Source: Prevotella sp. (GTDB lineage Bacteria > Bacteroidota > Bacteroidia > Bacteroidales > Bacteroidaceae). From it: a DNA stretch of 34,722 bases. The notes beneath the pieces were generated by a model, which saw nothing but the letters and a program-made list of their open reading frames with translations, was not told where the DNA came from and searched no databases. The position numbers and the translations under genes are program-made. The stretch is from NCBI GenBank assembly GCA_017965725.1, contig JAGCPK010000004.1, positions 1 to 34,722 of the forward strand, in the 5' to 3' direction. Every line of letters starts with the position of its first letter. Positions within the stretch are counted from its first letter, which is position 1. Positions 132 through 11,824 of the stretch are shown in pieces.

Positions 132-758
132 TTATGCCCGCTCTGCCCAGTCGCCACGGTCCAGACTACGATAGCCGATAGCCTCAGCGATATGATGGTT
201 CTGCACCTTCTCGCTACCTTCTAGGTCGGCAATGGTACGGGCCACCTTGAGAATACGACTATAGGCACGGGCAGAAAGCGAGAGCCGTTCCATCGCCATC
301 CGGAGCATGTCGAGACTCTGTTCGCCGGGCTGTGCAAACTGATGAATCATCCGCTCCGTCATCTGGGCATTGCAATGGATACCCTTGAAATCCTTGTAAC
401 GCTTTTCCTGTATCTGACGGGCCTTGATGACCCGTTCGCGGATAACGGCACTCGGTTCACCTGGCTGCATCCGCGAGAGTTGCTTGAAGGGTACAACGGC
501 CACTTCACAATGGATGTCGATTCTATCGAGGAGGGGACCTGATATCTTGTTCATATACCGCTGTATCTGACCAGGGGTACAGACGCAGTGATGCGTTGGG
601 TCGCCATAGTAGCCACAGGGGCAAGGGTTCATTGAGGCGACAAACATCAGCGAACAAGGATATTCCACTGTATATTTGGCACGGGAGATAGTTATCTTAC
701 GGTCTTCAAGGGGCTGACGAAGCACTTCGAGAGTGGTCTTGTTGAATTCAGGCAACTC
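132..758 (-). pseudogene. 5'-truncated comM/yifB copy (displaced 3' end)
   Basis: About 208 codons match the C-terminal 40% of the complete comM at 10271-11824, starting at the E-L-P-E-F residues just after Walker B. The N-terminal Lon-protease-like domain, Walker A and Walker B are all missing, so ATP hydrolysis by this piece is impossible. The N-P-C-P-C-G motif and the C-terminal Mg-chelatase helices remain. The stretch 595-725 is base-for-base identical to 10743-10873, while both sides are clearly diverged (roughly 70-75% identity by eye toward the 3' end). The GC-rich base use of 132-594 fits the core genome, so I infer that this is the native 3' end of comM displaced by island integration. 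The reading frame stays open and is fused to an upstream leader (759-899). Confidence 0.85.
595..725. repeat. Perfect 131-bp direct repeat, left copy
   Basis: Identical to 10743-10873 at a constant offset of 10148, with mismatches starting immediately on both sides (594 c vs t; 726 t vs c). It lies within the longer diverged comM repeat 132-758 / 10280-10906. A sharply bounded identical core inside diverged flanks marks a recombination or gene-conversion tract. Confidence 0.95.
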
Positions 759-899
759 ACCCAATTGGAAATACTTGTACCATTGTGTTTTAGCAGATAA
801 ACCATTGAAACACATAAGAAAACCTAACAGAAGTAGCACTCTTCCGTATTGCCATTTTTCGTGTTTTTGACTTTTTCTCTGCCTTTTTGCCACTAACAT
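759..899 (-). CDS. Signal-peptide-like leader fused in frame to the comM fragment
   Basis: The 47 codons upstream of the comM homology start MLVAKRQRKSQ, with a basic N-region, a hydrophobic core VLLLLGFLMCFNGLSA and a possible cleavage site after it. This looks like the beginning of an exported or membrane-anchored protein gene. It has its own promoter (TATCTTTGT at 926-934) and runs without a stop into the truncated comM frame, giving a 255-aa open frame over 132-899. I do not recognise the source gene. I read it as the 5' end of another gene joined to comM by illegitimate recombination, either before integration or at the island end. A stable chimeric product is possible but not demonstrated. 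Confidence 0.5.
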
Positions 900-983: not shown

Positions 984-1382
984 TTAAAGAAGTAAGTGTT
1001 CTTCCATCCATGCTCCATATATTGCTATATTATAGATGTCTTCAATAAAATGTCGTCCCAGTACAATATGCATATCAGAATCCTCTCTTGCTTCAATAAC
1101 GACATAGCCCCCTCTAACCGCCTTCCATCTTGCACGATGTATTTTGCGACTTATCTCAGAAAGCTCTACCGTTGAAAACAATCGACGTGCTAATAAATCA
1201 ACGTAAACTCTACTATTATGAATATAGAGACCTGGTTTATAATTAACGTTGCTTTCGTCACTCGCTGAGAAAAAGCCGGGTAAGACCTCCTTTTCTGGAT
1301 GAGTAGTTTCTTCGATAATCCCCCATTCAACTTTCTTCCCTTGAAGTCCAAAAACCGATTTGAGATAATTGATATAGTTCAT
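984..1382 (-). CDS. Hypothetical protein, 132 aa, last gene of the island cluster
   Basis: I do not recognise this protein. It begins MNYINYLKSVFGLQGKKVEW, has no signal peptide or membrane helix, and shows alternating beta-type segments in the middle (around GLYIHNSRVYVDLLARR) and a C-terminal acidic, aromatic region ending in E-E-H-L-L-L. It starts 15 bases after the stop of the 239-aa gene on the same strand, so the two are very probably translated from one mRNA. Its AT-rich base use matches the other island genes. It is best regarded as an accessory member of the AAA+/HEPN-like locus. The coding call is firm; the function is unknown. Confidence 0.75.
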   Translation of the reverse strand: MNYINYLKSVFGLQGKKVEWGIIEETTHPEKEVLPGFFSASDESNVNYKPGLYIHNSRVYVDLLARRLFSTVELSEISRKIHRARWKAVRGGYVVIEAREDSDMHIVLGRHFIEDIYNIAIYGAWMEEHLLL

Positions 1383-1397
1383 AAGCTATCGATTACG

Positions 1398-2117
1398 TTA
1401 TTTTCCATTCTTATTTTCAAACTCATCAGAAATTAGATGTCCCATTTCAGGCTTCCAGCTATACCTTTTTTCGGATGGACGTGGCCAGTCATCCCAAAGT
1501 GGATTTGACCAATCAAAGTGGCCTCTATTTTTCAGGTACTTTTGCCATTTTGTCCAATATTGAGAGGCTTCGATGTTTGAATCATAGTTGAAAGGGATAC
1601 TATCGTTTTCAAGATTTTTCATGCCTGAAACATTCTGTAAGACAGAGATTCCAAACAAATCCTGTTGCCAGGTATTGACCACATTCGGATAGTTTATAAT
1701 TTGAGAATTTGTTAGAAGCATCAGATGAATAGCGGGTACTAAGTCGAACTGCTGGGATATAGAATAGAATTCACGCATCCGACAAGCATGATCATATAGT
1801 TCCATCACAGGACTGAATCTCCACTCCTTCTCGTCTTTGCTAACAGTACCATCAGCGAGAACCTTTCGGAAATACTTAAGAGGTTTGTTGTGTCTAAATG
1901 TACACACTCCCTTGTCAGCACGCTCTAAAGTACCGTCTTCCACAAATGCATAGTCCATACATAACAATACGACTTCTGTTTTTGTAGCATAGAAATACAC
2001 AGCGTAGCCATCTATCTCCATGCCAGAAGAACAGGAAAATATCTCTTTACTCTTACCAATCTCGGAAAGATAATCCCAGATGGTTTCATTTGTTTGTACA
2101 AAGAACTTATCAATCAT
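1398..2117 (-). CDS. Homologue of the AAA+ protein's N-terminal domain, 239 aa
   Basis: The protein has no ATPase motif, but two blocks align by eye with the N-terminal domain of the AAA+ protein at 5474-7024. Residues 46-68 (pattern E.VLL..D....GT.E.AD) match AAA+ residues 54-74, and residues 134-150 (LLTNSQIINYPNVVNTW) match AAA+ residues 124-140 (VVSNSLFVNYDDMYDIW), each followed by a beta strand (GISVL / GVIVF). The shared fold looks alpha/beta; the second block resembles the later strands of Mrr/NERD-type nuclease folds, but no complete catalytic set is visible, so nuclease activity is only a thought. The C-terminal 60 residues are Trp-rich (WTKWQ, FDW, LWDDWPRP). A plausible role is a free-standing partner that competes with or docks onto the ATPase. 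Confidence 0.8.
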   Translation of the reverse strand: MIDKFFVQTNETIWDYLSEIGKSKEIFSCSSGMEIDGYAVYFYATKTEVVLLCMDYAFVEDGTLERADKGVCTFRHNKPLKYFRKVLADGTVSKDEKEWRFSPVMELYDHACRMREFYSISQQFDLVPAIHLMLLTNSQIINYPNVVNTWQQDLFGISVLQNVSGMKNLENDSIPFNYDSNIEASQYWTKWQKYLKNRGHFDWSNPLWDDWPRPSEKRYSWKPEMGHLISDEFENKNGK

Positions 2118-2275
2118 ATTCGTTCATTTTTTGGAAAGTTTCCATGTTGACATTATTGTTGATAAGAGTTATTGGCGTTTCCCGTTTATTTCCTTCATAT
2201 CATTCTGCTTGACGTTTTGATATGCCCTTACTTTTTTGCTTTTTAATCGACTACTCGTCTCGTTATGTTTGATTA

Positions 2276-5200
2276 TCAATAAGCATAATCAGAGTACAAG
2301 GGCATAGGATTTTTAATCGCATTATATTTTGCAATTTCACTTATATCAAGATTTTTATCATTGATGTCACCTTGAAATTTGGGAGGATCAATGCTAAATT
2401 TATCATATGCATTTATATTTTTCTGAATATTTGCAATTGAAGAAAAAATCTTATAAGCAAGACATCCATTCTGAGCTAAAAGAGATTGACCGTTATTCAT
2501 AGAAAGGCATATATAGTCATTTATATAAGTAAGTCCTTTTATATCTGTTGAGTTGGAATTGGATAATAACAATTGGTTTTTACCTCTGTCCATTAAAATA
2601 AGCATGAATTTATTCATCAATAGCCATTCTTGGGGTAGATAAGGTATAATTTTTTCTCCAACTTGATATTCATATAGATATTTTTCATCATTGGTAAAAA
2701 AGAACTCTGCTACAGCACTTGCCAATTTGGGAGACTTTTTCAATAAGTCTGGGTTAAAATAAAAATTTAACAGAAGGTTCGATTCATCGTTAGTTCCAAG
2801 TACAGGTGGACATCTTTTGATGTTAGTAACAAGAGATTCTGTATATGTTCCTCTTCTTGCAGATGAAGTAATAAGAACATCAGATTTCCCTATATTTTTT
2901 TCGCATCCATATCCTTTTGCCAGAGACACTCCTTTTAAGTAATCGGCTACAGCAATAGAATCAGTACAGTTATCTCGTTTCATTGCAAGTTGAACAGCCC
3001 TAGAGAAGTCTTCTGGATTTCGCGTCATTAGCCGTGATGTAATTTGTATTGATGAAACAAATGAAGTGTCACTTATGCTTACATCGTTTTTCTTTGTATT
3101 GTGTGTTAGAACATACAGAGAATCAGCAGCTTCAACCGCCAAATCATAGTCTTTGTTTTCTACATAATGAATATAATCTGACATCAAGCCACCAACTCCT
3201 CCAATAACATTAGCCATTCCTGTCATTTTTTCTTTCATTGTTCGGCCTAATTCTGTGAGACTGAATATGTCAGAATTTAATAACATCGACAAATTGATGG
3301 CAATAGCTGCTTTCTGTTGTATGCCACAATAAAATGCTGCGCAATGATAATTTAACCCACCGTTAGCATCGCCCATAAGATTGTGAATGTCCCCTAGAGC
3401 CAATAATGCATATGGATTGCTATTCGCTAGTGCAAAAAGAGCATTATAGCCCTCTCCAAAATTAGGATGAAGTATAAAATCTGTATCTTCATTGTTGCGA
3501 ACACCCCACAGAGATAGCATTGCTTTTTCATATTTTACATCATCGTTATTAATATTTTGCAAACTTTGAAATGCACTTTCGCAGATTTGTTCTGATACTA
3601 CTAACGATGATGATTTTGTAACGGCATTATATATTTCATACAATGCTTTGGTTAAGCGCATATATGTTTCTTGAGAGTCGATCGCTCGTGATAGTTCTTT
3701 TCGGGCCAGCTCAATCTCACCTCGTTTAAAAAGTAAATAAGCATATAGTCCTTGTCCTTCTTTGATTTCTCGAACCTCTTTCTTTTGTGCATAATAGAAT
3801 GCCGAATCTAGATCATAGCATCCTTTACCAGAAATATACAAATGGCATAAATCAATGCAAGCACTACTATTTTGTTGCTCTGCAAGACTTCTCAGTTGAC
3901 TAATAGCTTCTCTGTAAGACTCTCTTGCTTGTTCACAAAGGCAAAAATCTTGTTTCCAGATTGCTACTTTTAAAAGACTGTCCCCCAAAGAAATAATAGA
4001 ATGAACTTCTTTATTGTTGTCATATGAAATTTGTGGTCTTTGAGTATCTATGTGTGAAGTTTTGAAATAGAACATACCACAAATTAAAATAACAATTATC
4101 ATTAAGATCCCAGCAGCAGCAATAAGACTAGATACCTTAATATCATTAACCATTTTACCTATCCATGTTAATGTCGCGGTATTATTGTCTATCTTATTTC
4201 CAATACCTACCATCTGACTTAGAAGTTCTTCAAAACGAATTGAATTGTCGCAGGAAGTATCTTCATCACCAGACCGGATTACAGGTTCACCCATAGGGTG
4301 GATATAGGCATGAGGAGAGAAACTGTTGTATACAAATTCTGCATTCGCTTCTCTTCGTTCGTTTACCACCAATTTGTATTGTACATAATGCTCTATATTA
4401 AAAACAATTGTTTTGTTATTACACTCTTCAATATTTTTGCTGATTTCAATTTCATCATTATTCACGATTTTGAAGAGCTTTATATCCAAATTGGGAATGG
4501 GGTTCTCAATATAAACATAAAACTTTGTCGGCTTTAATTGGTGATATTCTCCCTTTCCACGTCGAATCAAGGTTTGTCTAAGTGTAAGGACAAGGTGTAT
4601 ATAGACAAATAAGCAGAATTCAAAAACCCTATTCGCTCCTTGTGTTACCGTATTGTCAATGTGATGTGCCTGGTTGTTACGTATTTTCTTTATAGCTTTA
4701 AGATAATTGATAACTTGTTTGAAATCCTCATCCAAACCATTGTCTATCAATCTATCTTCCGTTATAGTAATAAGTGCATCGTATGTCGCTTTCTCTAATA
4801 TTTCATTAGCACTTTCAAATGGTCTTTTGACTCTTTGGTATTTTTTCCTTTTATCAGCAGAGTCTTCTTTCAAATTCCCATCTCTGTCAAGATACATTAG
4901 TTTTGCATCTTTAGAATAGAATATTGGTGATAAAAAATCTCCCTTAATTTTTTCAACAGGATTTTCTTTCCAAAAATGTTTTACAATCAGTTTTATAATT
5001 GTATCTTCGGACATTTGTTTGGTTTCGTAAGCGTTTTTGGGCTCATCTGTTTTAATAAACTTAAGTAGGGACAATATATGCTTGTTAAGGCTATCCAATT
5101 CGCCCAAAGCGCCAGCATTGTCTATAATGTCGAAGAATTCTTCGACAGAAGCCCATTTTTGAGATTCGGAAACTTTGATGCTATGCCGCAAAAAAGATCC

Positions 5201-5416
5201 GAATTCTTTTTTGGTTTTATCGTAGTCTCTGCCAAAATAAGATCCATAATAGTTTGTTCCATCACTATCCGTAAGTGCAAGATTCAAAGCCTTGTTGAGT
5301 CTGTCATTATCAACATCCTCAAAATCTCTACGCTGTAAATAATCGCAATAACGGTCAAAATAATTCTGAGAGTAGAATATTTGCTTTAGCGATTCAATAG
5401 TTATTTTATTATCCAT
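2276..5416 (-). CDS. HEPN-like / transmembrane / Sel1-TPR protein, 1046 aa
   Basis: A large three-part protein. Residues 1-300 are helical and contain K-K-I-R-N-N-Q-A-H-H, in which R246-N-N-Q-A-H251 fits the R-x4-6-H signature of HEPN RNase domains, usually on a helix as here. Residues 310-400 look like beta-rich linker. A single hydrophobic helix at about 428-451 (VSSLIAAAGILMIIVILICG) should span the inner membrane. The rest is helical-repeat sequence with Sel1/TPR character, for example around 496-545 (LYISGKGC..DSAFYYA) and 822-855 (GVSLAKGYGCEKN). I start at the ATG at 5416: the longer frame to 5464 would begin upstream of the TAATTTTGC promoter at 5434-5442. With the AAA+ gene immediately upstream, the likely picture is a membrane-anchored sensor/effector. 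Family membership of the HEPN part is inference from one motif. Confidence 0.75.
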   Translation of the reverse strand: MDNKITIESLKQIFYSQNYFDRYCDYLQRRDFEDVDNDRLNKALNLALTDSDGTNYYGSYFGRDYDKTKKEFGSFLRHSIKVSESQKWASVEEFFDIIDNAGALGELDSLNKHILSLLKFIKTDEPKNAYETKQMSEDTIIKLIVKHFWKENPVEKIKGDFLSPIFYSKDAKLMYLDRDGNLKEDSADKRKKYQRVKRPFESANEILEKATYDALITITEDRLIDNGLDEDFKQVINYLKAIKKIRNNQAHHIDNTVTQGANRVFEFCLFVYIHLVLTLRQTLIRRGKGEYHQLKPTKFYVYIENPIPNLDIKLFKIVNNDEIEISKNIEECNNKTIVFNIEHYVQYKLVVNERREANAEFVYNSFSPHAYIHPMGEPVIRSGDEDTSCDNSIRFEELLSQMVGIGNKIDNNTATLTWIGKMVNDIKVSSLIAAAGILMIIVILICGMFYFKTSHIDTQRPQISYDNNKEVHSIISLGDSLLKVAIWKQDFCLCEQARESYREAISQLRSLAEQQNSSACIDLCHLYISGKGCYDLDSAFYYAQKKEVREIKEGQGLYAYLLFKRGEIELARKELSRAIDSQETYMRLTKALYEIYNAVTKSSSLVVSEQICESAFQSLQNINNDDVKYEKAMLSLWGVRNNEDTDFILHPNFGEGYNALFALANSNPYALLALGDIHNLMGDANGGLNYHCAAFYCGIQQKAAIAINLSMLLNSDIFSLTELGRTMKEKMTGMANVIGGVGGLMSDYIHYVENKDYDLAVEAADSLYVLTHNTKKNDVSISDTSFVSSIQITSRLMTRNPEDFSRAVQLAMKRDNCTDSIAVADYLKGVSLAKGYGCEKNIGKSDVLITSSARRGTYTESLVTNIKRCPPVLGTNDESNLLLNFYFNPDLLKKSPKLASAVAEFFFTNDEKYLYEYQVGEKIIPYLPQEWLLMNKFMLILMDRGKNQLLLSNSNSTDIKGLTYINDYICLSMNNGQSLLAQNGCLAYKIFSSIANIQKNINAYDKFSIDPPKFQGDINDKNLDISEIAKYNAIKNPMPLYSDYAY

Positions 5417-5433
5417 ATTACTGATATTTTGGT

Positions 5434-5442
5434 GCAAAATTA
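5434..5442 (-). promoter_or_regulatory. -7 element in front of the HEPN-like gene
   Basis: The minus strand reads TAATTTTGC between the AAA+ stop (5474) and the ATG at 5416, giving a leader of roughly a dozen bases. It decides the start codon and suggests that the HEPN-like gene can be transcribed separately from the ATPase. Confidence 0.6.
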
Positions 5443-5473
5443 CTAAAAAAAACAGAAAGAACAATGTTTATAT

Positions 5474-7024
5474 TCAAATAAAACCAATTTTATCTCTATT
5501 TATTGGAATTTGTATGGAGTGGATATCTGCTACGGTAATTTTATGAAGCCTAATATTATCTTCGACATTTGAAATCACACAGCGTTTTGCGTGATGAATA
5601 TATATATTATCTAATAAATTTGTTATGAAACGGGCATTCCCCCATGATTCATGCTCCTTTTTCCGATAGGCATCTTTCACAATACATTTATATGTTATCC
5701 ATGCTAATCTGGTAAAACTATAATGATAACTTCTTGTCTGTAGACGTGTTATCTCCAGCAATTCTTCTTCCGTAAAATCAGGAAATACGAAACGGTTGGG
5801 AAAACGTGATTCCAACCCAGGATTCAATTCCAGCATTTGCTCAATAGGCTTTTTATATCCACAAAGAATTATTGCAATATCTCTTTGATTTTCATCTGCT
5901 AGAACATCCATCAGTAAAGGAAGAACCAATTTCCCTGGATCTGCATGATGATTGCTATTCAAGAGATATGCTTCATCTATCATTAACACCCCTCCTTTTG
6001 CCTCACGAAGAACAACACTAACACTTGACTCTTCGTCACCAAACAAATTACCGACAAAAGTACCACGATTGCAGATAACAACATGTCCTTTTGACAGCAC
6101 TCCTGCTTCCTTCAATAACGAACCAAAGATTCTACACACTGTCGTTTTCCCCGTTCCAGGATTCCCCATAAAGAGGCTATGCAACGGCAATTTATGAGTT
6201 TTGGCATTGGGATCAATCGACTTTAGCCTTTGATTGTATTGTGAAAGCATCGTAAGATCATAAATACGCTTTTTGATTTCTGTACAACCGACTAACCGAT
6301 TTAATACTTCCAACGGATTTTTTATCGGAGGCAGAATTTCCGCCTTCAATCCTTCACATGAATAATGCTCTTGTGTTTCATTCGTACCGAAATCATCTAA
6401 TTCCTCCTGATGCCTTGTTTCAACGTCATTATTAAGCTGGAAAGAATCTAGAGGAAAGGATGGAACAGGCGGAAACAGTCTATCTATATCACGCATGGGG
6501 GTATGATATAACAGAGAGCCTTTCAGGTTATCATTCTTATTTGTCACAAAATGGTATTTCTCCAACGACTTTAAACTATGAAAGACTATTACACCCATAT
6601 CATTCCATATGTCGTACATATCGTCATAGTTTACAAATAAGGAATTACTAACGACAACACATCCAACTTCAACCCCACCAATACCAGCTCTTTCACAACT
6701 CTTTATTAGGTGCTGTGCTGCACAAGTCAATAACCATATTGGGCTTATACGAGTAGAACTCTCGCAGAAATACAGAGGGGCTTCTTCATTGAAACGTTCT
6801 TCGTCAGCTAGTTCAACAGTTCCCTGCTTGACAACATCTATTAATAATAGAACCGCTTCTTTTTCATTAGGAGCAATTATAATAATATTCTTGCCATTTT
6901 TTGCCACATGATGTTCAAATTGATCCGTTTCATTAGAATAAATGGATTTATTGTCTTGAATTTTGTCCAAGAATCCCAATATGGTTGCATGACTTTGCTT
7001 TTTTATTTCTTCGATGAGTTTCAT
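5474..7024 (-). CDS. CbbX/SpoVK-type AAA+ ATPase with N-terminal accessory domain, 516 aa
   Basis: The C-terminal half is a classic AAA+ module: Walker A GNPGTGKTT at 287-295, Walker B GGVLMIDE at 344-351, sensor-1 strand IAIILCGY at 383-390, arginine finger in NPGLESRF (R407), and G-N-A-R in the lid at 462-465. This set is typical of the CbbX/SpoVK/EccA-like group, whose members act as hexameric remodelling ATPases. Residues 30-170 form an alpha/beta domain homologous to the 239-aa protein at 1398-2117, joined by a hydrophilic linker (190-235). No membrane segment is seen, so it is probably cytosolic. It lies between a lipoprotein gene and the HEPN-like membrane protein gene, all in the same direction, so remodelling or gating that protein is a reasonable hypothesis. 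No TTTGC-type promoter is visible directly upstream. Confidence 0.85.
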   Translation of the reverse strand: MKLIEEIKKQSHATILGFLDKIQDNKSIYSNETDQFEHHVAKNGKNIIIIAPNEKEAVLLLIDVVKQGTVELADEERFNEEAPLYFCESSTRISPIWLLTCAAQHLIKSCERAGIGGVEVGCVVVSNSLFVNYDDMYDIWNDMGVIVFHSLKSLEKYHFVTNKNDNLKGSLLYHTPMRDIDRLFPPVPSFPLDSFQLNNDVETRHQEELDDFGTNETQEHYSCEGLKAEILPPIKNPLEVLNRLVGCTEIKKRIYDLTMLSQYNQRLKSIDPNAKTHKLPLHSLFMGNPGTGKTTVCRIFGSLLKEAGVLSKGHVVICNRGTFVGNLFGDEESSVSVVLREAKGGVLMIDEAYLLNSNHHADPGKLVLPLLMDVLADENQRDIAIILCGYKKPIEQMLELNPGLESRFPNRFVFPDFTEEELLEITRLQTRSYHYSFTRLAWITYKCIVKDAYRKKEHESWGNARFITNLLDNIYIHHAKRCVISNVEDNIRLHKITVADIHSIQIPINRDKIGFI

Positions 7025-7083
7025 GGTATACCTGATTTTAACGGTGGATAAATAGCTTTAATTCTCACATTTTCCTATAGTAG

Positions 7084-7770
7084 TTATGGATCGCCTCTGA
7101 AACTAACATTACTTCCCAGATGCAGCATAGCATAGTTGTAGTATCGTCGACTGTCCAACTCATAGCTTTCTTTTAATGAGTCGGGGAGTAGTATTGAAAC
7201 TCTATGTCGAGTTGAAGAGAAGTTCGACCATGCTACTACGAAAGCAGAGGCAATTCCTGCAGAATCCATCCTTTCAGATTCACGAAACACCCATTGCTCT
7301 GACAATTCATCAAAAACTTGTTTGTTGTCATATACTGTCATTTTCTTTAAGGTGTCAACTTGTGAACTGGGATGTCTTTCTATTATAATAGAGTGAAGTA
7401 CCGCTAATGAAGAATCTCGTATTACGAGCAAAGACTCTAAAAAAGGAATCCATCCATGAGGGTCTGGCCTTAAAAGAGCATCCCTTTGGTAATAATTGAA
7501 GGCGTAATCCACGTTTATCCATGCCAAGGAAAGTTCATGCCAAGCAGTATTCTCGTCTGCCAAGGCTTCTTTCAGCATTTGAGATCCTGCATATTCTACG
7601 ATAGAATCGTATGACATATCCTGTCTCGCAATCATGTCTACAAGCAGTTCGACTTTTTCATGAAAGCGTTGTTCGGGATTGTCTTTCGTTAGCGACTTTT
7701 GACAACTTGTGAAAAGCAAAAGACACATAATCGTTGCCAGAAATAATATGATTGTCAGTGTGTTCTTCAT
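7084..7770 (-). CDS. Lipoprotein of unknown function, 228 aa
   Basis: The N-terminus is a lipoprotein signal: M-K-N-T, a hydrophobic core (LTIILFLATIMCLLLFTS) and the lipobox L-F-T-S-C with C23 as the acylated residue. The mature part is mostly helical and hydrophilic, with no motif that I recognise. As part of the island cluster it should sit in the periplasmic leaflet of the inner membrane or in the outer membrane. The neighbouring HEPN-like protein also crosses the membrane, so a contact between the lipoprotein and its extracytoplasmic region is imaginable, but nothing in the sequence proves it. It ends about 60 bases before the AAA+ start. Confidence 0.75.
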   Translation of the reverse strand: MKNTLTIILFLATIMCLLLFTSCQKSLTKDNPEQRFHEKVELLVDMIARQDMSYDSIVEYAGSQMLKEALADENTAWHELSLAWINVDYAFNYYQRDALLRPDPHGWIPFLESLLVIRDSSLAVLHSIIIERHPSSQVDTLKKMTVYDNKQVFDELSEQWVFRESERMDSAGIASAFVVAWSNFSSTRHRVSILLPDSLKESYELDSRRYYNYAMLHLGSNVSFRGDP

Positions 7771-7809
7771 AATATAATCATTTTAATTCAACATGTTTTG
7801 TGGAAGCCA

Positions 7810-7833
7810 GTATTGAGTAGTGCTTCTCAATAC
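7810..7833 (-). other. Hairpin between micro-ORF 4 and the lipoprotein gene
   Basis: A perfect 8-bp stem (GTATTGAG / CTCAATAC) with an 8-base loop. No U-tract follows on the minus strand, so it is not a standard intrinsic terminator. It could stabilise or attenuate the mRNA between the micro-ORFs and the large genes. Confidence 0.55.
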
Positions 7834-7855
7834 CGACCTTAATTGTTAAGTCCGA

Positions 7856-8026
7856 TTACTTGTGATAGGGATTCCCCCATACATCAAGTGCGTAGTCATT
7901 GATTTCAAGTTCGTGTATTGCATTCTCAACGTCACTTTCTCGAAGAGACTCATTAGCGTATACAACACCAGATTCACCATTGCCGTTTATAATATCAGCG
8001 TAATAATTAGGATCAAAGTCACTCAT
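7856..8026 (-). CDS. Micro-ORF 4: 56-aa small acidic protein of the G-T-S-Y-T-like family
   Basis: Reading the minus strand from the ATG at 8024-8026 gives a 56-aa protein starting MSDFDPNYYADIINGNGESG and ending VWGNPYHK. It shares with the three upstream micro-ORFs an acidic, aromatic N-terminus, an N-G-x-E-x-G turn and a following V/T-x-Y-[TA] strand (here G-V-V-Y-A), then a charged helix. It is the most diverged of the four. As with the others, ACT immediately precedes the ATG. There is no signal peptide and no cysteine. The start is supported by the shared ACT-ATG context and the family alignment. Function unknown. Confidence 0.6.
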   Translation of the reverse strand: MSDFDPNYYADIINGNGESGVVYANESLRESDVENAIHELEINDYALDVWGNPYHK

Positions 8027-8066
8027 AGTTCATTAAATATTAAGTTAAAAGTTTAGTGATTTGTAT

Positions 8067-8090
8067 AGTAAGGAGATTTTGGTCTCCTTA
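8067..8090 (-). other. Hairpin in the micro-ORF 4 leader
   Basis: A perfect 9-bp stem (GTAAGGAGA / TCTCCTTAC) around a 6-base loop, 40 bases upstream of micro-ORF 4. It contains a purine-rich AGGAGA, and no U-tract follows. Possible translational control element or processing site. Confidence 0.6.
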
Positions 8091-8283
8091 CCCGATTAGA
8101 GTCTTCTTGCGAAGTTGTTCTTCCGATTGATTCAATGATCCCAAGTGCCATTGGCATATTGTCTCAACCCCATATCAAAGTATAAGCTGTTAGGTGAAAT
8201 ATTGGTGTCGTTTCTGAAAGGCAACAGCCCTGAATCCTCCAGTCGCAATGTTAGAGATTAGAAGTACCCTTTCTTTTGGTTCC

Positions 8284-8424
8284 TTAAAGCTCTCCAGCGT
8301 CACGTAAGACGTTTTCTGCTTCGTGATAGGCTTCTTGAGCCTGATGATAAGGGTCCCTTGTGTAAGATGTTCCTGGTTCGTAACCGTGATTGTCATAAAT
8401 GACATGTGCTGTTTGTAAATCCAT
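8284..8424 (-). CDS. Micro-ORF 3: 46-aa small protein of the G-T-S-Y-T family
   Basis: The 46-aa frame starts MDLQTAHVIYDNHGYEPG and continues T-S-Y-T-R-D-P-Y, ending in a helix (HEAENVLRDAGEL). The core I-Y-D-N-x-G-x-E-P-G-T-S-Y-T aligns with micro-ORFs 1 and 2. The frame could be extended to 8502, but the ATG at 8424 has the same ACT-ATG context as its paralogues, and the extension would run through the hairpin at 8448-8484. No promoter of its own is seen, so it is probably co-transcribed from the micro-ORF 2 promoter. Function unknown. Confidence 0.6.
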   Translation of the reverse strand: MDLQTAHVIYDNHGYEPGTSYTRDPYHQAQEAYHEAENVLRDAGEL

Positions 8425-8447
8425 AGTGTTTGTTGTTTTAATGGTTA

Positions 8448-8484
8448 AAGGGCTGTTCAGTTTTGCTATCCAAGGCCAGCCCTT
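8448..8484 (-). other. Leader hairpin of micro-ORF 3
   Basis: An 8-bp perfect stem (AAGGGCTG / CAGCCCTT) closes a 21-base loop, ending 23 bases before the micro-ORF 3 ATG. It has no terminator tail. Confidence 0.55.
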
Positions 8485-8524
8485 ATAATCCTTTGGTAGC
8501 AATAGATGAGAGAATATCGTTTAA

Positions 8525-8686
8525 TTAGTCTGGTGAACACCACCGGCCTGCCTGATCTTGATAATAACCTCCGCTAACTAAGCGGTCATGCGCATCCTGA
8601 ACTGCGGTTTCCCTGTCATAACCTGTGTAGCAGGTACCTGCTTCACCATTGTTCTCAACTGTGTAAATGTCATCAATGTAACTCAT
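8525..8686 (-). CDS. Micro-ORF 2: 53-aa small protein of the G-T-C-Y-T family
   Basis: The 53-aa frame starts MSYIDDIYTVENNGEAG and continues T-C-Y-T-G-Y, ending W-C-S-P-D. The core I-Y-x-x-E-N-N-G-E-A-G-T-C-Y-T is shared with micro-ORFs 1, 3 and 4. An upstream in-frame ATG at 8719 would add eleven basic residues not seen in the paralogues, so the ATG at 8686 is preferred; it is also preceded by ACT. It has its own promoter (8772-8780) and WYL-type operator (8801-8822). Two cysteines (C19 and C50) are present. Function unknown; candidate roles are a small sensor, antitoxin or inhibitor for the large proteins downstream. Confidence 0.65.
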   Translation of the reverse strand: MSYIDDIYTVENNGEAGTCYTGYDRETAVQDAHDRLVSGGYYQDQAGRWCSPD

Positions 8687-8771
8687 AGTATTAAACCTGC
8701 GGCCTTTGGTTTTGGTCATTTGTTGTCAGAGCGGCCTGAATACTTGACTGACCATTTCAACTTTTTCTGGT

Positions 8772-8780
8772 GCAAAGATA
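8772..8780 (-). promoter_or_regulatory. -7 element of micro-ORF 2
   Basis: The minus strand reads TATCTTTGC. Exactly 20 bases separate it from the inverted-repeat operator at 8801-8822, the same spacing as at micro-ORF 1. The leader to the ATG at 8686 is about 80 bases. Confidence 0.7.
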
Positions 8781-8800
8781 GATACTTTGTTTTCAACATC

Positions 8801-8822
8801 TATGAAAGATTCCTTCATACTT
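8801..8822 (-). promoter_or_regulatory. Operator copy 2 (TATGAA-N7-TTCATA)
   Basis: Half-sites TATGAA (8801-8806) and TTCATA (8814-8819) flank a 7-base centre, followed by CTT. The block ATGAA-R-GATT-M-CTTCATACTT is shared with the copy at 9192-9216. It covers the expected -33 region, so a bound protein would block transcription. A third half-site TTCATAC lies at 8839-8845. The neighbouring WYL protein is the obvious candidate binder. Confidence 0.7.
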
Positions 8823-8832
8823 CATTTTTGTA

Positions 8833-9012
8833 TTATTCTTCATACGTTCCTCTAAACTGCTCTATTCCAAATGAGTCGTGCTCACTGAGTATTCTTCGCG
8901 CTTCTTCAATTTCAGAATAGTTTACTGGACGTTCTGGGGTGTAGCTTGTTCCTCCAGGTTCATCATAGGTCAAATTGTAGACCAAATCTAGAAAATCATA
9001 ATCGTTTTGCAT
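8833..9012 (-). CDS. Micro-ORF 1: 59-aa small acidic protein of the G-T-S-Y-T family
   Basis: The 59-aa frame starts MQNDYDFLDLVYNLTYDEPG and continues G-T-S-Y-T-P-E-R, followed by a charged helix (SEIEEARRILSEH) and a short acidic tail. It shares the core Y-x-x-E-P-G-T-S-Y-T with micro-ORF 3 and the overall plan with micro-ORFs 2 and 4. It is first in the series, 154 bases from its promoter (9166-9174), with an operator at 9192-9216. ACT precedes the ATG, as in all four. No signal peptide, membrane segment or cysteine. Function unknown. Confidence 0.65.
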   Translation of the reverse strand: MQNDYDFLDLVYNLTYDEPGGTSYTPERPVNYSEIEEARRILSEHDSFGIEQFRGTYEE

Positions 9013-9024
9013 AGTTGATTGTTT

Positions 9025-9067
9025 AAGGCCGTTTTTGTTTTATTACAGTCATCTATTAAGTGGCCTT
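9025..9067 (-). other. Leader stem of micro-ORF 1 (AAGGCC / GGCCTT)
   Basis: A 6-bp inverted repeat in the 5' UTR. Its ATG-proximal GGCC is 14 bases upstream of the ATG. Micro-ORF 2 also has two GGCC blocks (8701-8704 and 8733-8736), the nearer one likewise 14 bases from its ATG. Possibly a shared translational control structure; the stems are short, so this is tentative. Confidence 0.4.
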
Positions 9068-9165
9068 CCTAACTTCTCAATGACTATTCTTCTCTTTTGT
9101 CACAATTCCATTAGAACAAGGATTAAGACATTGTCTATTCCTCGACACTTCTTTCAAGTGACAAT

Positions 9166-9174
9166 GCAAAGGTA
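9166..9174 (-). promoter_or_regulatory. -7 element of micro-ORF 1
   Basis: The minus strand reads TACCTTTGC, the full Bacteroidetes consensus, exactly 20 bases downstream of the operator half-site at 9195. Confidence 0.7.
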
Positions 9175-9191
9175 AGGGTAATAAAATAAAA

Positions 9192-9216
9192 AAGTATGAA
9201 GGATTACTTCATACTT
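9192..9216 (-). promoter_or_regulatory. Operator copy 1 (10-bp perfect inverted repeat)
   Basis: Arms AAGTATGAAG (9192-9201) and CTTCATACTT (9207-9216) form a perfect inverted repeat around 5 bases. The inner half-sites TATGAA / TTCATA have the same 7-base centre as operator copy 2. It overlaps the last codons and stop of the WYL gene and the -33 region of micro-ORF 1, so it could serve as an operator, a weak hairpin at the end of the WYL gene, or both. Confidence 0.75.
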
Positions 9217-10189
9217 GATAAAAAACCTGCATTTTAGCTGTCCTGTCTGCAAATTCGTCTCGAAGAAACTGTGGAGAAATAACTTCTATCGCATCATTAT
9301 AGGAAAACAGAAGCATTTTTAATTCGGTGTTAACCTTTACTCTTATTTGTATGTAAACGGAATCTGCCGTTTCCTTCTCTCTCAATTCTGTCTGAGACCA
9401 ATGTAAGGGCTTGGTGCGGATGTAGCCAATATCCTTTCTGGCTATACGTAACACTATTGTTTCAACAGGATTATCTGTAAAATTTGTCACTCCTATAATG
9501 TCATCAAAATAGTCTTCAAAATTAATCTCTGAAGGAATGTATTTCTTGCTTAAGTGAGAAACATTCGCAATACGATCTATAGGATAATTAAAAACAGCAT
9601 TGTTCTCTTCTGACCATCCAAAAGCAAACCAGCGATTATTGAATTGCTTTAAATAATATGGATGGAAATTTGTTGTAACCTCTTCATTCTTAAATGATGT
9701 GTAATACAGTTTTAAAGGATGCTTATGGATAATTGCATTCATTATGGACTCTATATGTTCCAAACCTGCCAAGTCCTGATTGTAATCGAATGACATAGCC
9801 AAGCTATCGCCATTAATGCCGTCTTTTAATCCTAACAAGAAGAATCTAAGATAATCATATCTAGGATCACCTTCAAATGTTTTAAGCTTCTCTATTGTGG
9901 TGTTGATGACTTCTACATCTTTATTGATCTGCTTGAAAATGCTAAAATTTCTATCCTTATATCTCCATAATTTCTCTCTACCTCGATGGGCAGAATCGGA
10001 TTCATCGAATTCCGCTCCAAAAACAGTAGTAAACTCCTTTAGATTCTCGTCCAATGTTCTTTTATCAATATCGTCAATGTACTCGTCTAAAAGAATCTCT
10101 TTCTTCGTTACACCTTCTGGCTCTCTTAGTAGTTGGTCTAATCTTACGAACCTTTTCAATTTGTTCTGATCGGGAAATTTCTTACTCAT
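9209..10189 (-). CDS. WYL-domain transcriptional regulator, 326 aa
   Basis: Residues 8-65 look like a winged-helix DNA-binding domain (LKRFVRLDQLLREPEGVTKKEI...). Residues about 158-215 are a WYL domain: LKLYYTSFKNE, FHPYYLKQFNNRWFAFGW and NYPIDRI fit the usual pattern of beta strands with the W-[YF]-[LA] core. Residues 243-320 resemble the C-terminal WCX extension, which often mediates dimerisation or ligand response. WYL proteins of this layout (BrxR, CapW) repress phage-defence operons by binding inverted repeats in promoters and are thought to respond to nucleic-acid ligands. Here two such repeats lie directly downstream, in front of micro-ORFs 1 and 2. The gene is first in the island cluster, followed by micro-ORF 1 after about 200 bases. 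The regulatory link is inference from position and repeat symmetry. Confidence 0.85.
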   Translation of the reverse strand: MSKKFPDQNKLKRFVRLDQLLREPEGVTKKEILLDEYIDDIDKRTLDENLKEFTTVFGAEFDESDSAHRGREKLWRYKDRNFSIFKQINKDVEVINTTIEKLKTFEGDPRYDYLRFFLLGLKDGINGDSLAMSFDYNQDLAGLEHIESIMNAIIHKHPLKLYYTSFKNEEVTTNFHPYYLKQFNNRWFAFGWSEENNAVFNYPIDRIANVSHLSKKYIPSEINFEDYFDDIIGVTNFTDNPVETIVLRIARKDIGYIRTKPLHWSQTELREKETADSVYIQIRVKVNTELKMLLFSYNDAIEVISPQFLRDEFADRTAKMQVFYQV

Positions 10190-10270: not shown

Positions 10271-11824
10271 TTACAATCCCCTTTCAGCCCAATCACCACG
10301 GTCAAGATTTCGATATCCTATGGCTTCTGCTATGTGCATATCTTCCACTTTCTCACTACCAGCTAGGTCTGCGATGGTTCTGGCCACCTTCAAAATACGG
10401 GTATAAGCACGGGCAGAAAGACTCAATTTCGCCATTGCCATACGAAGGAGGGCTAAACCTTGCTCATTTGGCTCTGCAAATTCGTGTATCATACGCTCCG
10501 TCATCTGGGCATTGCAGTGTATTCCTTTGTAGTCTTTGTATCTGATTTCCTGGATATTACGAGCATTTATAACCCTCTCTCTGATGCTTGAACTACCCTC
10601 GCATAACGGAGTGTTCTTTTTGGAAATTTGGTCAAAAGTGAGAGGCTGAATTTCGCACTGAATGTCAATGCGATCCATCAAAGGACCACTGAATTTTGAC
10701 ATATATTTTGATATTTGCCCAGGGGTACATACACAGTGATGTGTTGGGTCGCCATAGTAGCCACAGGGGCAAGGGTTCATTGAGGCGACAAACATCAGCG
10801 AACAAGGATATTCCACTGTATATTTGGCACGGGAGATAGTTATCTTACGGTCTTCAAGGGGCTGACGAAGCACCTCAAGAGTCGTTTTGTTGAACTCTGG
10901 CAGTTCATCGAGAAAGAGCACCCCATTATGCGCCATACTCACTTCCCCTGGCAAGGCTCTGTTGCCACCACCTGTCATGGCGACCTGAGAAACGGTATGG
11001 TGCGGACTACGGAAGGGACGTTGCGAGATGAGCGATGTACCAGTGGGCAGTTTACCAGCCACAGAGTGGATCTGTGTGGTCTCAAGGCTCTCTGCCAACG
11101 ACAAGGGCGGCAGGATGCTGGGGAGACGCTTGGCCATCATTGACTTACCGCTGCCGGGGGCTCCAATCATGATCAAGTTGTGACCACCAGCAGCGGCTAC
11201 CTCCAAAGCACGCTTCACACTCTCCTGTCCTTTGACCTCGGCAAAGTCGAGGTCAAAGGAATATTGTTGTTCATAAAACTCTTTTCGGGTATCCACGACA
11301 GTAGGCTTATAATCCTCAGAGCCGTTGAAAAAACTGACCACATCAGCCAGACTGTCCATCCCATAGACCTCAAGATTATTCACGACAGCCGCCTCACGGA
11401 CGTTCGCCTCAGGCACGATGAGCCCCTTGAACCGCTCTGCACGGGCACGAATGGCTACAGGCAGGGCTCCGCTGACAGGCTTCAGACTACCGTCGAGACC
11501 AAGTTCACCAATCATCATATACTCAGCCAGACTATTCTGACTCACCTTCCCATGGGCGGCAAGGATGCCGATGGCAAGAGGCAAATCGTAACCACTCCCC
11601 TCCTTACGGATATCGGCAGGAGAAAGATTGATGGTGATGTCAGCGGTAGGCGGTTTGAAACCGATGTTTCCCATGGCCGCACGGATACGGTCGTAACTCT
11701 CCTTAACAGCGGTATCAGCCAGTCCGGACAGATGGAACTGTACTCCTCGGGTCATATTCACTTCGATAGTGATGGTAGTGGCTTCCAGCCCCATGACGGC
11801 TGCGCAGAATGTCTTTACAAGCAT
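10271..11824 (-). CDS. comM: ComM/YifB-type Mg-chelatase-like AAA+ ATPase, 517 aa (hybrid gene)
   Basis: Complete length for the family. The N-terminal 170 residues are the Lon-protease-like S5 fold domain (VNMTRGVQFHLSGL...DLPLAIGILAA). Walker A is GAPGSGKS at 221-228, Walker B GVLFLDE at 301-307, then N-P-C-P-C-G at 350-355 and the C-terminal helical lid. ComM is a helicase that drives branch migration during natural transformation; the family is also annotated as YifB. The first 1 kb (10743-11824) is GC-rich like the core genome, while 10271-10742 is AT-richer and diverged from the displaced copy at 132-594. The gene therefore appears to be native 5' plus island-borne 3', joined in the 131-bp tract, and all motifs remain intact. 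It starts 32 bases after the thioredoxin-like gene and is probably co-transcribed with it. Confidence 0.9.
   Translation of the reverse strand: MLVKTFCAAVMGLEATTITIEVNMTRGVQFHLSGLADTAVKESYDRIRAAMGNIGFKPPTADITINLSPADIRKEGSGYDLPLAIGILAAHGKVSQNSLAEYMMIGELGLDGSLKPVSGALPVAIRARAERFKGLIVPEANVREAAVVNNLEVYGMDSLADVVSFFNGSEDYKPTVVDTRKEFYEQQYSFDLDFAEVKGQESVKRALEVAAAGGHNLIMIGAPGSGKSMMAKRLPSILPPLSLAESLETTQIHSVAGKLPTGTSLISQRPFRSPHHTVSQVAMTGGGNRALPGEVSMAHNGVLFLDELPEFNKTTLEVLRQPLEDRKITISRAKYTVEYPCSLMFVASMNPCPCGYYGDPTHHCVCTPGQISKYMSKFSGPLMDRIDIQCEIQPLTFDQISKKNTPLCEGSSSIRERVINARNIQEIRYKDYKGIHCNAQMTERMIHEFAEPNEQGLALLRMAMAKLSLSARAYTRILKVARTIADLAGSEKVEDMHIAEAIGYRNLDRGDWAERGL
10743..10873. repeat. Perfect 131-bp direct repeat, right copy
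   Basis: Identical to 595-725. Mismatches resume at once on both sides (10742 and 10874). Confidence 0.95.

Follow-up and report, generated by a model that had tools for sequence, protein, structure and literature searches.

A mosaic-looking gene block with a CbbX-type AAA+ ATPase between two comM 3' ends in Prevotella sp.

What holds together the ten intact genes that span 984..10189 on the minus strand beside comM in a contig of Prevotella sp. (GCA_017965725.1, JAGCPK010000004.1)? The window, meaning the whole stretch of DNA analyzed, is 34,722 nucleotides long. A first-pass annotation made from the sequence alone had proposed that these genes, inserted in comM, form one undescribed system: a WYL regulator, four paralogous micro open reading frames (micro-ORFs), a lipoprotein, a CbbX-type AAA+ ATPase, a HEPN-like transmembrane (TM) protein with Sel1 repeats, a stand-alone homolog of the N-terminal domain (N-domain) of the ATPase, and a protein of 132 amino acids (aa). 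All ten codirectional genes are present at the positions it gave. Rather than a fixed system, known or new, the block appears to be a mosaic pieced together from sub-modules that recur. Our tentative reading is a mosaic AAA+ module under local regulation, sited in a hotspot: a horizontally acquired cassette that may have entered at comM with a foreign comM 3' end. The observations beneath this reading are an AT-rich block, two comM tails, the gene content, the class of the AAA+ protein, the homology of the N-domain, a micro-protein family, and two pairs of an inverted repeat and a TAnnTTTG box that are, at the threshold applied, confined to this locus.

The block is real and foreign in composition. 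The G+C content (GC) of the island is 36.1%, that of the right flank including comM is 48.5%, and that of the left comM fragment is 53.1%. The insertion at comM is borne out and can be refined, since the block has an intact comM on one side and a displaced comM 3' end on the other. The two copies are near-identical over about 150 bp, judged by eye from the alignment, beyond which they diverge. In 27 of the 27 loci with a usable reading, out of 29 compared (L095-L123), the comM tail of the relative is nearer to the displaced tail than to that of the intact comM. The sample is biased, because it consists of the top-scoring loci when the displaced fragment itself was the query. Identities from the same comparison, which do not depend on rank alone, point the same way in L095 and L096, which are the nearest relatives: the comM 5' part of the window is 88% and 87% identical to theirs and the displaced tail 89% and 86%, whereas the tail that the intact comM has now is only 75% and 72% identical. 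Because the 5' part and the displaced tail are near these relatives and the tail of the intact gene is far from them, the block probably carried its own comM 3' end, and the native tail probably stayed behind. The alternative is that the tail alone was exchanged later.

A comM 3' query matched 74 of 80 genomes of the genus, its own included. Six of the 80 (G000, G1103, G1138, G1112, G1130 and G1113, own included) have, on one contig, an intact comM and at least one 3' fragment no more than about 9.5 kb away; G1103 has three fragments, and those of G1130 and G1113 are short, at 28-47 residues. Partial or second comM copies of G246, G1157, G1142, G1124, G1133, G1127, G1128 and G1144 were left out of this count, as they lie on other contigs, at contig ends or elsewhere, or show an apparent frame break. 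From comM to the first fragment the GC is 36-44% in the six cases, and in comM itself 50-61%. The fragment alignment begins at comM residue 382-384 in L124, L125, L126 and L129 and near residue 305 in the window, with soft alignment ends. Among the cargo, Pfam recognizes a WG-repeat protein in L126 and, in L124 (G1103), where genes lie between the three tandem fragments, one RhuM protein, one trypsin-like protein and one that combines trypsin and FGE-sulfatase domains. Judged from these comparisons, comM is a recurrent island site in the genus at which the 3' end of the gene is changed (L124-L128 and the window). No integrase was recognized in the window block by Pfam and NCBIfam scans. In the AbaR islands of Acinetobacter, as outlined in PMC7508600 and others, comM is the insertion gene too; here, in contrast, comM is intact by virtue of a changed 3' end and the displaced tail is retained. 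In the one collection of papers searched, none joins comM, Bacteroidales, hotspot and recombination. A comM with an island entry, a changed 3' end and the old tail kept would be a simple marker for accessory islands in the genus.

RhuM-family genes lie inside or beside four comM islands (L124, L126, L127 and L128). Only the one at 11527-12552 of L124 is confirmed by Pfam (3e-108), the others being recognized by eye from their first residues. The RhuM-like gene of L128 lies with PDDEXK_4 and WYL (tblastn, 1.6e-16) genes beyond the fragment, not within the island. The survey in PMC3710099 includes a proposal of RhuM as a toxin domain.

Table 1. Positions of the block genes, candidate regulatory sites and comM copies in the window
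Feature	Position	Strand	Basis or remark
WYL-WCX transcription factor P0001	9209..10189	-	Pfam; N-terminal helix-turn-helix (HTH)-like region by eye
Perfect inverted repeat TATGAAG-N5-CTTCATA, candidate WYL operator 1	9195..9213	.	overlaps WYL gene end
TAnnTTTG box, 20 bp from repeat 1	9167..9174	-	pattern search
Micro-ORF 1, P0009, 59 aa	8833..9012	-	
Inverted repeat with 1 mismatch, candidate WYL operator 2	8801..8819	.	pattern search
TAnnTTTG box, 20 bp from repeat 2	8773..8780	-	pattern search
Micro-ORF 2, P0010, 53 aa	8525..8686	-	closest to Prevotella sp. tf2-5 member
Micro-ORF 3, P0011, 46 aa	8284..8424	-	
Micro-ORF 4, P0012, 56 aa	7856..8026	-	
Lipoprotein-like P0006, 228 aa	7084..7770	-	lipoprotein-type start, by eye
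N-domain + CbbX/SpoVK-type AAA+ ATPase P0002, 516 aa	5474..7024	-	Pfam, NCBIfam, PDB
TAnnTTTG box directly upstream of P0003, possible own promoter	5435..5442	-	pattern search
P0003, 1046 aa: RNNQAHH motif at 246, hydrophobic segment near 431, TPR/Sel1-like C-part by eye	2276..5416	-	
Stand-alone N-domain protein P0004, 239 aa	1398..2117	-	blastp to P0002 N-domain
P0005, 132 aa, family not recognized	984..1382	-	
Intact comM, 3' part apparently imported	10271..11824	-	tail comparison
Displaced comM 3' fragment, probably native tail	132..764	-	tail comparison

The AAA+ protein P0002 is of the CbbX type, as annotated. It has a CbbX/SpoVK-type core with AAA_lid_6 (Pfam) and matches CbbX structures in the PDB at 8e-36 over the AAA+ part. 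Walker A and SRFP were found by motif search, and Walker B (VLMIDEA) was read from the sequence by eye. All scores are below the NCBIfam equivalog cut-offs (SpoVK 185 of 423 bits, CbbX 148 of 459, EccA 112 of 467). P0002 has the AAA+ core, lid, Walker A and SRFP of CbbX, SpoVK and EccA, but it carries an N-domain of about 230 aa that has no Pfam model, and no Rubisco or type VII genes were recognized in the block. P0004 is homologous to this N-domain (blastp, 5e-6 for the pair) and is the stand-alone version that had been described.

The N-domain was found in 3 of 393 genomes of the order sample, its own among them, in 1 of 395 of the phylum sample, which is its own genome, and in the family sample in 24 of 301 at E<=0.1 and 16 of 301 at E<=1e-3, own genome included. 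Sixteen loci were examined, from the 15 other family genomes at E<=1e-3 (L033-L047) plus L006; the loci of 8 of the 24 family genomes (E 0.0048 to 0.085) were left out. P0002 relatives are present in 14 of the 16, and P0004-type proteins in L033 and L038. The N-domain is fused to AAA+ in 13 loci, as in P0002, and in L046 the two are separate adjoining genes. With P0004 and its L033 ortholog as queries, genome contigs yielded seven loci at 57-74% identity, two of which (L050 and L054) are taken to be identical with the contigs of L033 and L038. In two of the seven, the run with the P0004 ortholog also contains a CbbX-type AAA+ that lacks the N-domain: in L053 they are parted by one 94-aa gene, and in L051 the AAA+ gene is about 7 kb upstream. 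By these homologies the N-domain is a family without a Pfam model that occurs both fused to and split from CbbX-type AAA+. An AlphaFold2 model of P0004 from seven aligned relatives is weak (mean predicted local distance difference test score 56.4, predicted template modeling score 0.58, best ten-residue block 85); its element order, H-E-E-E-E-E-E-H-E-H-E-H-H, hints at an alpha/beta core. A PD-(D/E)XK or NERD-like fold is conceivable, though no Pfam match supports it.

Some relatives differ in form. In L006 (5385-9176) the N-domain is fused to three apparent tandem AAA+ domains, L040 (6108-10319) has a 1403-aa relative, and the P0004 ortholog of L038/L054, which lacks about query residues 73-163, is probably a shortened copy. 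One directional run in L042 (5233-14598) comprises WYL, two HIRAN-like proteins (one of them below the Pfam cut-off), small proteins, an N-domain AAA+, a lipoprotein-like protein and a 740-aa protein. It is an architectural parallel to the window; no small genes in common were found.

The same gene set was not seen again in the samples covered. Among the 14 loci with a P0002 relative the neighbors mostly differ and the exact set was not refound. No P0003, P0005, P0006 or micro-ORF relative was found in the 16 loci at tblastn E<=0.01 (the best match is P0009 in L035, 0.015), so no fixed system of this composition was found, and a fixed ten-gene system, as stated in the annotation, is rejected for the samples searched. 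Parts of the set do recur. A P0001-like WYL gene is present in 4 of the 16 loci (L042, L044, L045 and L046), or 4 of the 14 with a P0002 relative. N-domain and AAA+ are split in L046, L051/L092 and L053, and micro-protein, stand-alone N-domain and AAA+ share one run in L051/L092. When L044/L045 and L035/L036 are merged, 12 loci that contain a P0002 relative remain, and 3 of them have the WYL gene, with a chance of about 1e-4 estimated from 35 WYL matches in 15 genomes by a search that does not list the L046 copy. WYL genes therefore lie within 5 kb of an N-domain AAA+ more often than genome density predicts, in a post hoc test whose 5-kb limit was chosen after the loci had been inspected.

The four micro-ORFs have a G-T/V-x-Y motif in common, and each matches a fifth member, from Prevotella sp. 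tf2-5, with a score reached by 0-1 of 1000 shuffles. Among the six direct pairs, O2-O4 beats all 1000 shuffles; for two others 18-19 of the 1000 shuffles reach the score, and the remaining three are not significant (83, 117 and 727 of 1000). The motif and the fifth member bear out the proposed paralogy. The closest to the fifth member is P0010 (45% over 49 aa, 5e-10 for the pair). This fifth micro-protein is encoded in L051, extended as L092 (NZ_FOWK01000019.1), in one run with a P0004 ortholog, a CbbX-type AAA+, an AAA+-trypsin protein, a vWA protein (matches up to 8.6e-5, under the Pfam cut-off), a kinase, two WG-repeat genes, a 341-aa protein that is phosphatase-like by eye without a Pfam match, and a zinc-ribbon gene recognized by eye. 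HTH-like, MIT_C-like and coiled-coil genes also lie in this run (L092 1420-16663 and the P0004 ortholog downstream).

A micro-protein profile matched only the window (4 copies) and G085 among 301 family genomes at E<=1e-3, 76 of the 301 having some match at E<=1, and it matched one of the seven genomes of the P0004-ortholog scan. In G085 (L056/L085) the micro-protein-like segment (6.9e-9) lies near the start of a protein that is SusD-like by eye, and it is kept as a lead. Matches at E 0.003-1 in frames of about 400-415 aa in genus g21 (L058-L060) were set aside as unrelated by eye.

P0001 has WYL (5.2e-12) and WCX (7.7e-9) domains above the Pfam cut-off, in agreement with its annotation as a WYL regulator. 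The inverted repeat at its gene end and the one-mismatch copy are the only two places with at most one mismatch (2 forward, 2 reverse) in its own genome (2,655,967 bases, 85% complete). For a slightly wider pattern with at most two mismatches, the 4 strand-matches in the window alone were reached by 2 of 100 shuffles. A TAnnTTTG box, which we take to be a Bacteroides-type -7 element, follows each repeat at equal spacing. The block is probably regulated at its upstream end, and P0001 may bind both repeats as candidate operators. A WYL regulator likewise stands beside an operon in the cyclic-oligonucleotide-based antiphage signaling systems (CBASS) as outlined in PMC9122588, but no CBASS genes were recognized here, and the target sites here are suggested by the repeats only.

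The annotation knew of no described system with this composition, and no named one was recognized here. PADLOC gave no system-specific match for the six large proteins, only generic WYL models and Cas3c (4.2e-11, WYL part) for P0001, DolB (3.8e-8) and TRIP13 (0.0019) for the AAA+ part of P0002, and SIR2 (0.016) for P0004. In the collection of papers mentioned above there was none joining WYL, CbbX and Bacteroid-, none on WYL domain, Bacteroidetes, small protein and operon, and, by title, none on this subject for CbbX, Bacteroid- and defense. The part of PMC11090510 on TerY-P triads and on SpoVK-type AAA+ in extensions of coiled-coil nuclease tandems (CoCoNuTs) describes operons that L092 resembles in its vWA, kinase, phosphatase-like, zinc-ribbon and AAA+-trypsin genes; no vWA, kinase or phosphatase was recognized among the six large proteins of the window block. 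Among the iSTAND effectors named in PMC7159879, which describes vWA-MoxR and iSTAND systems, are Sel1 and other repeats behind TM segments, but no MoxR, vWA or iSTAND component was recognized here, and the word CbbX is absent from its text. A viral or plasmid origin was considered and rejected: P0003 and the N-domain have no match in phages or plasmids, and viral contigs gave no confirmed match for P0002, P0003 or queries A3, A4 and A7. Of the 268 plasmid records matched by P0002, not one aligns over 80% of the query; in the 20 listed it is mostly the AAA+ part that matches.

P0003 has a single strong hydrophobic segment, and this TM part of the HEPN-like-TM-Sel1 description stands. The HEPN and Sel1 parts were not confirmed: the RX4-6H motif is present (RNNQAHH at 246) but weak alone, no HEPN model or chain was found in Pfam or the PDB, and no Sel1 match appeared in Pfam up to E 1, where the best repeat is TPR_11 (0.12, under the cut-off) and the resemblance to Sel1 is by eye. 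Fusions of HEPN with Sel1, TM and AAA+ are among those listed in PMC3710099. A VipD-like_C match (0.002, under the cut-off) was not used, and a match in G1082 (E 0.003) was judged to be chance, the protein there being unrelated by eye. The start of P0006 is lipoprotein-like, as described. For P0005, an NCBIfam MduS match (5e-5, 22 bits against a cut-off of 380) was not used.

Several of these results weigh against a joint module. The full set was found once, and the neighbors of N-domain AAA+ relatives are mostly different or unrelated. P0003 has no relative in the genomes, phages, plasmids and viral contigs searched, P0006 none in 99 other genomes of the genus or in plasmids, and P0005 none in plasmids and the loci examined. 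The HEPN assignment has no profile behind it and comes from one motif. The reversed control pattern occurs once per strand in the same genome, against two for the repeat, so that one repeat by itself would carry little weight. Between 1300 and 10400 the minus strand has seven TAnnTTTG boxes: two at the repeats, four within genes and one just ahead of P0003. P0003 may be transcribed from a promoter of its own, and hence the ten genes might not form a single operon. Five of the seven P0004-ortholog loci, two of them short contigs, show no CbbX-type AAA+ in the DNA examined, so P0004 may act alone. A rival account, which we consider somewhat doubtful, takes the block as independent cargo that piled up at comM with no joint function: a unit of the WYL gene and the micro-ORFs, and three orphans, namely the N-domain AAA+, P0003 and P0004. 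It fits the mostly unrelated neighbors of N-domain AAA+ and P0004 genes, the varied comM cargo with several fragments in a row in L124, and a TAnnTTTG box belonging to P0003 alone, but the ten genes are codirectional, P0003 is flanked by two N-domain genes in one block, and the WYL/AAA+ and micro-protein/P0004/AAA+ pairings recur.

If the block is instead a locally regulated AAA+ module, the WYL protein on the two repeats would repress the micro-ORF and AAA+ genes until a ligand arrives. The CbbX-type ring would then remodel a client recognized by its N-domain. P0004 could be a detachable adaptor or a competitor for the same client, because fused and split N-domain forms exist elsewhere, and the micro-proteins could be small clients or cofactors. 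Should the HEPN-like motif of the membrane-anchored P0003 be genuine, this protein might be the effector that remodeling toggles. The role of such a module is likely a stress or conflict response; phage defense is one possibility, and a defense role is conjectural. With such a module, the AAA+ remodeling systems of Bacteroidales would gain a recognition domain and a family of micro-proteins, and the two operators would make up a compact, testable WYL regulon. That it exemplifies a wider Bacteroidales remodeling toolkit, with an undescribed recognition domain fused to or beside CbbX-type rings, micro-protein partners of about 55 aa, a locus-private WYL operator pair and delivery by comM 3'-end exchange, is a speculative and rather doubtful extension.

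CbbX is known to remodel a cellular enzyme, and several P0002 relatives sit among genes that look like housekeeping genes by eye. Together with the lipoprotein-like and TM proteins of the set, this would suit a housekeeping-like stress chaperone module, in which AAA+ and lipoprotein answer envelope or metabolic stress with no phage link. We regard this as unlikely, since the genes are AT-rich, patchy and placed at a hotspot, and since WYL parts are often reported in conflict loci. HEPN-like parts are often found there too, by the account given in PMC3710099. Least probable, and quite improbable, is an interbacterial competition or immunity cassette built by comM tail displacement like the effector-immunity arrays of Vibrio, as no effector, immunity or secretion family scored above cut-off in the window block, even though the comM pattern, with its displaced 3' ends and successive islands, resembles the Vibrio displacement arrays as presented in PMC5361080, and an RHS-core-like sequence is seen by eye in the comM island L125.

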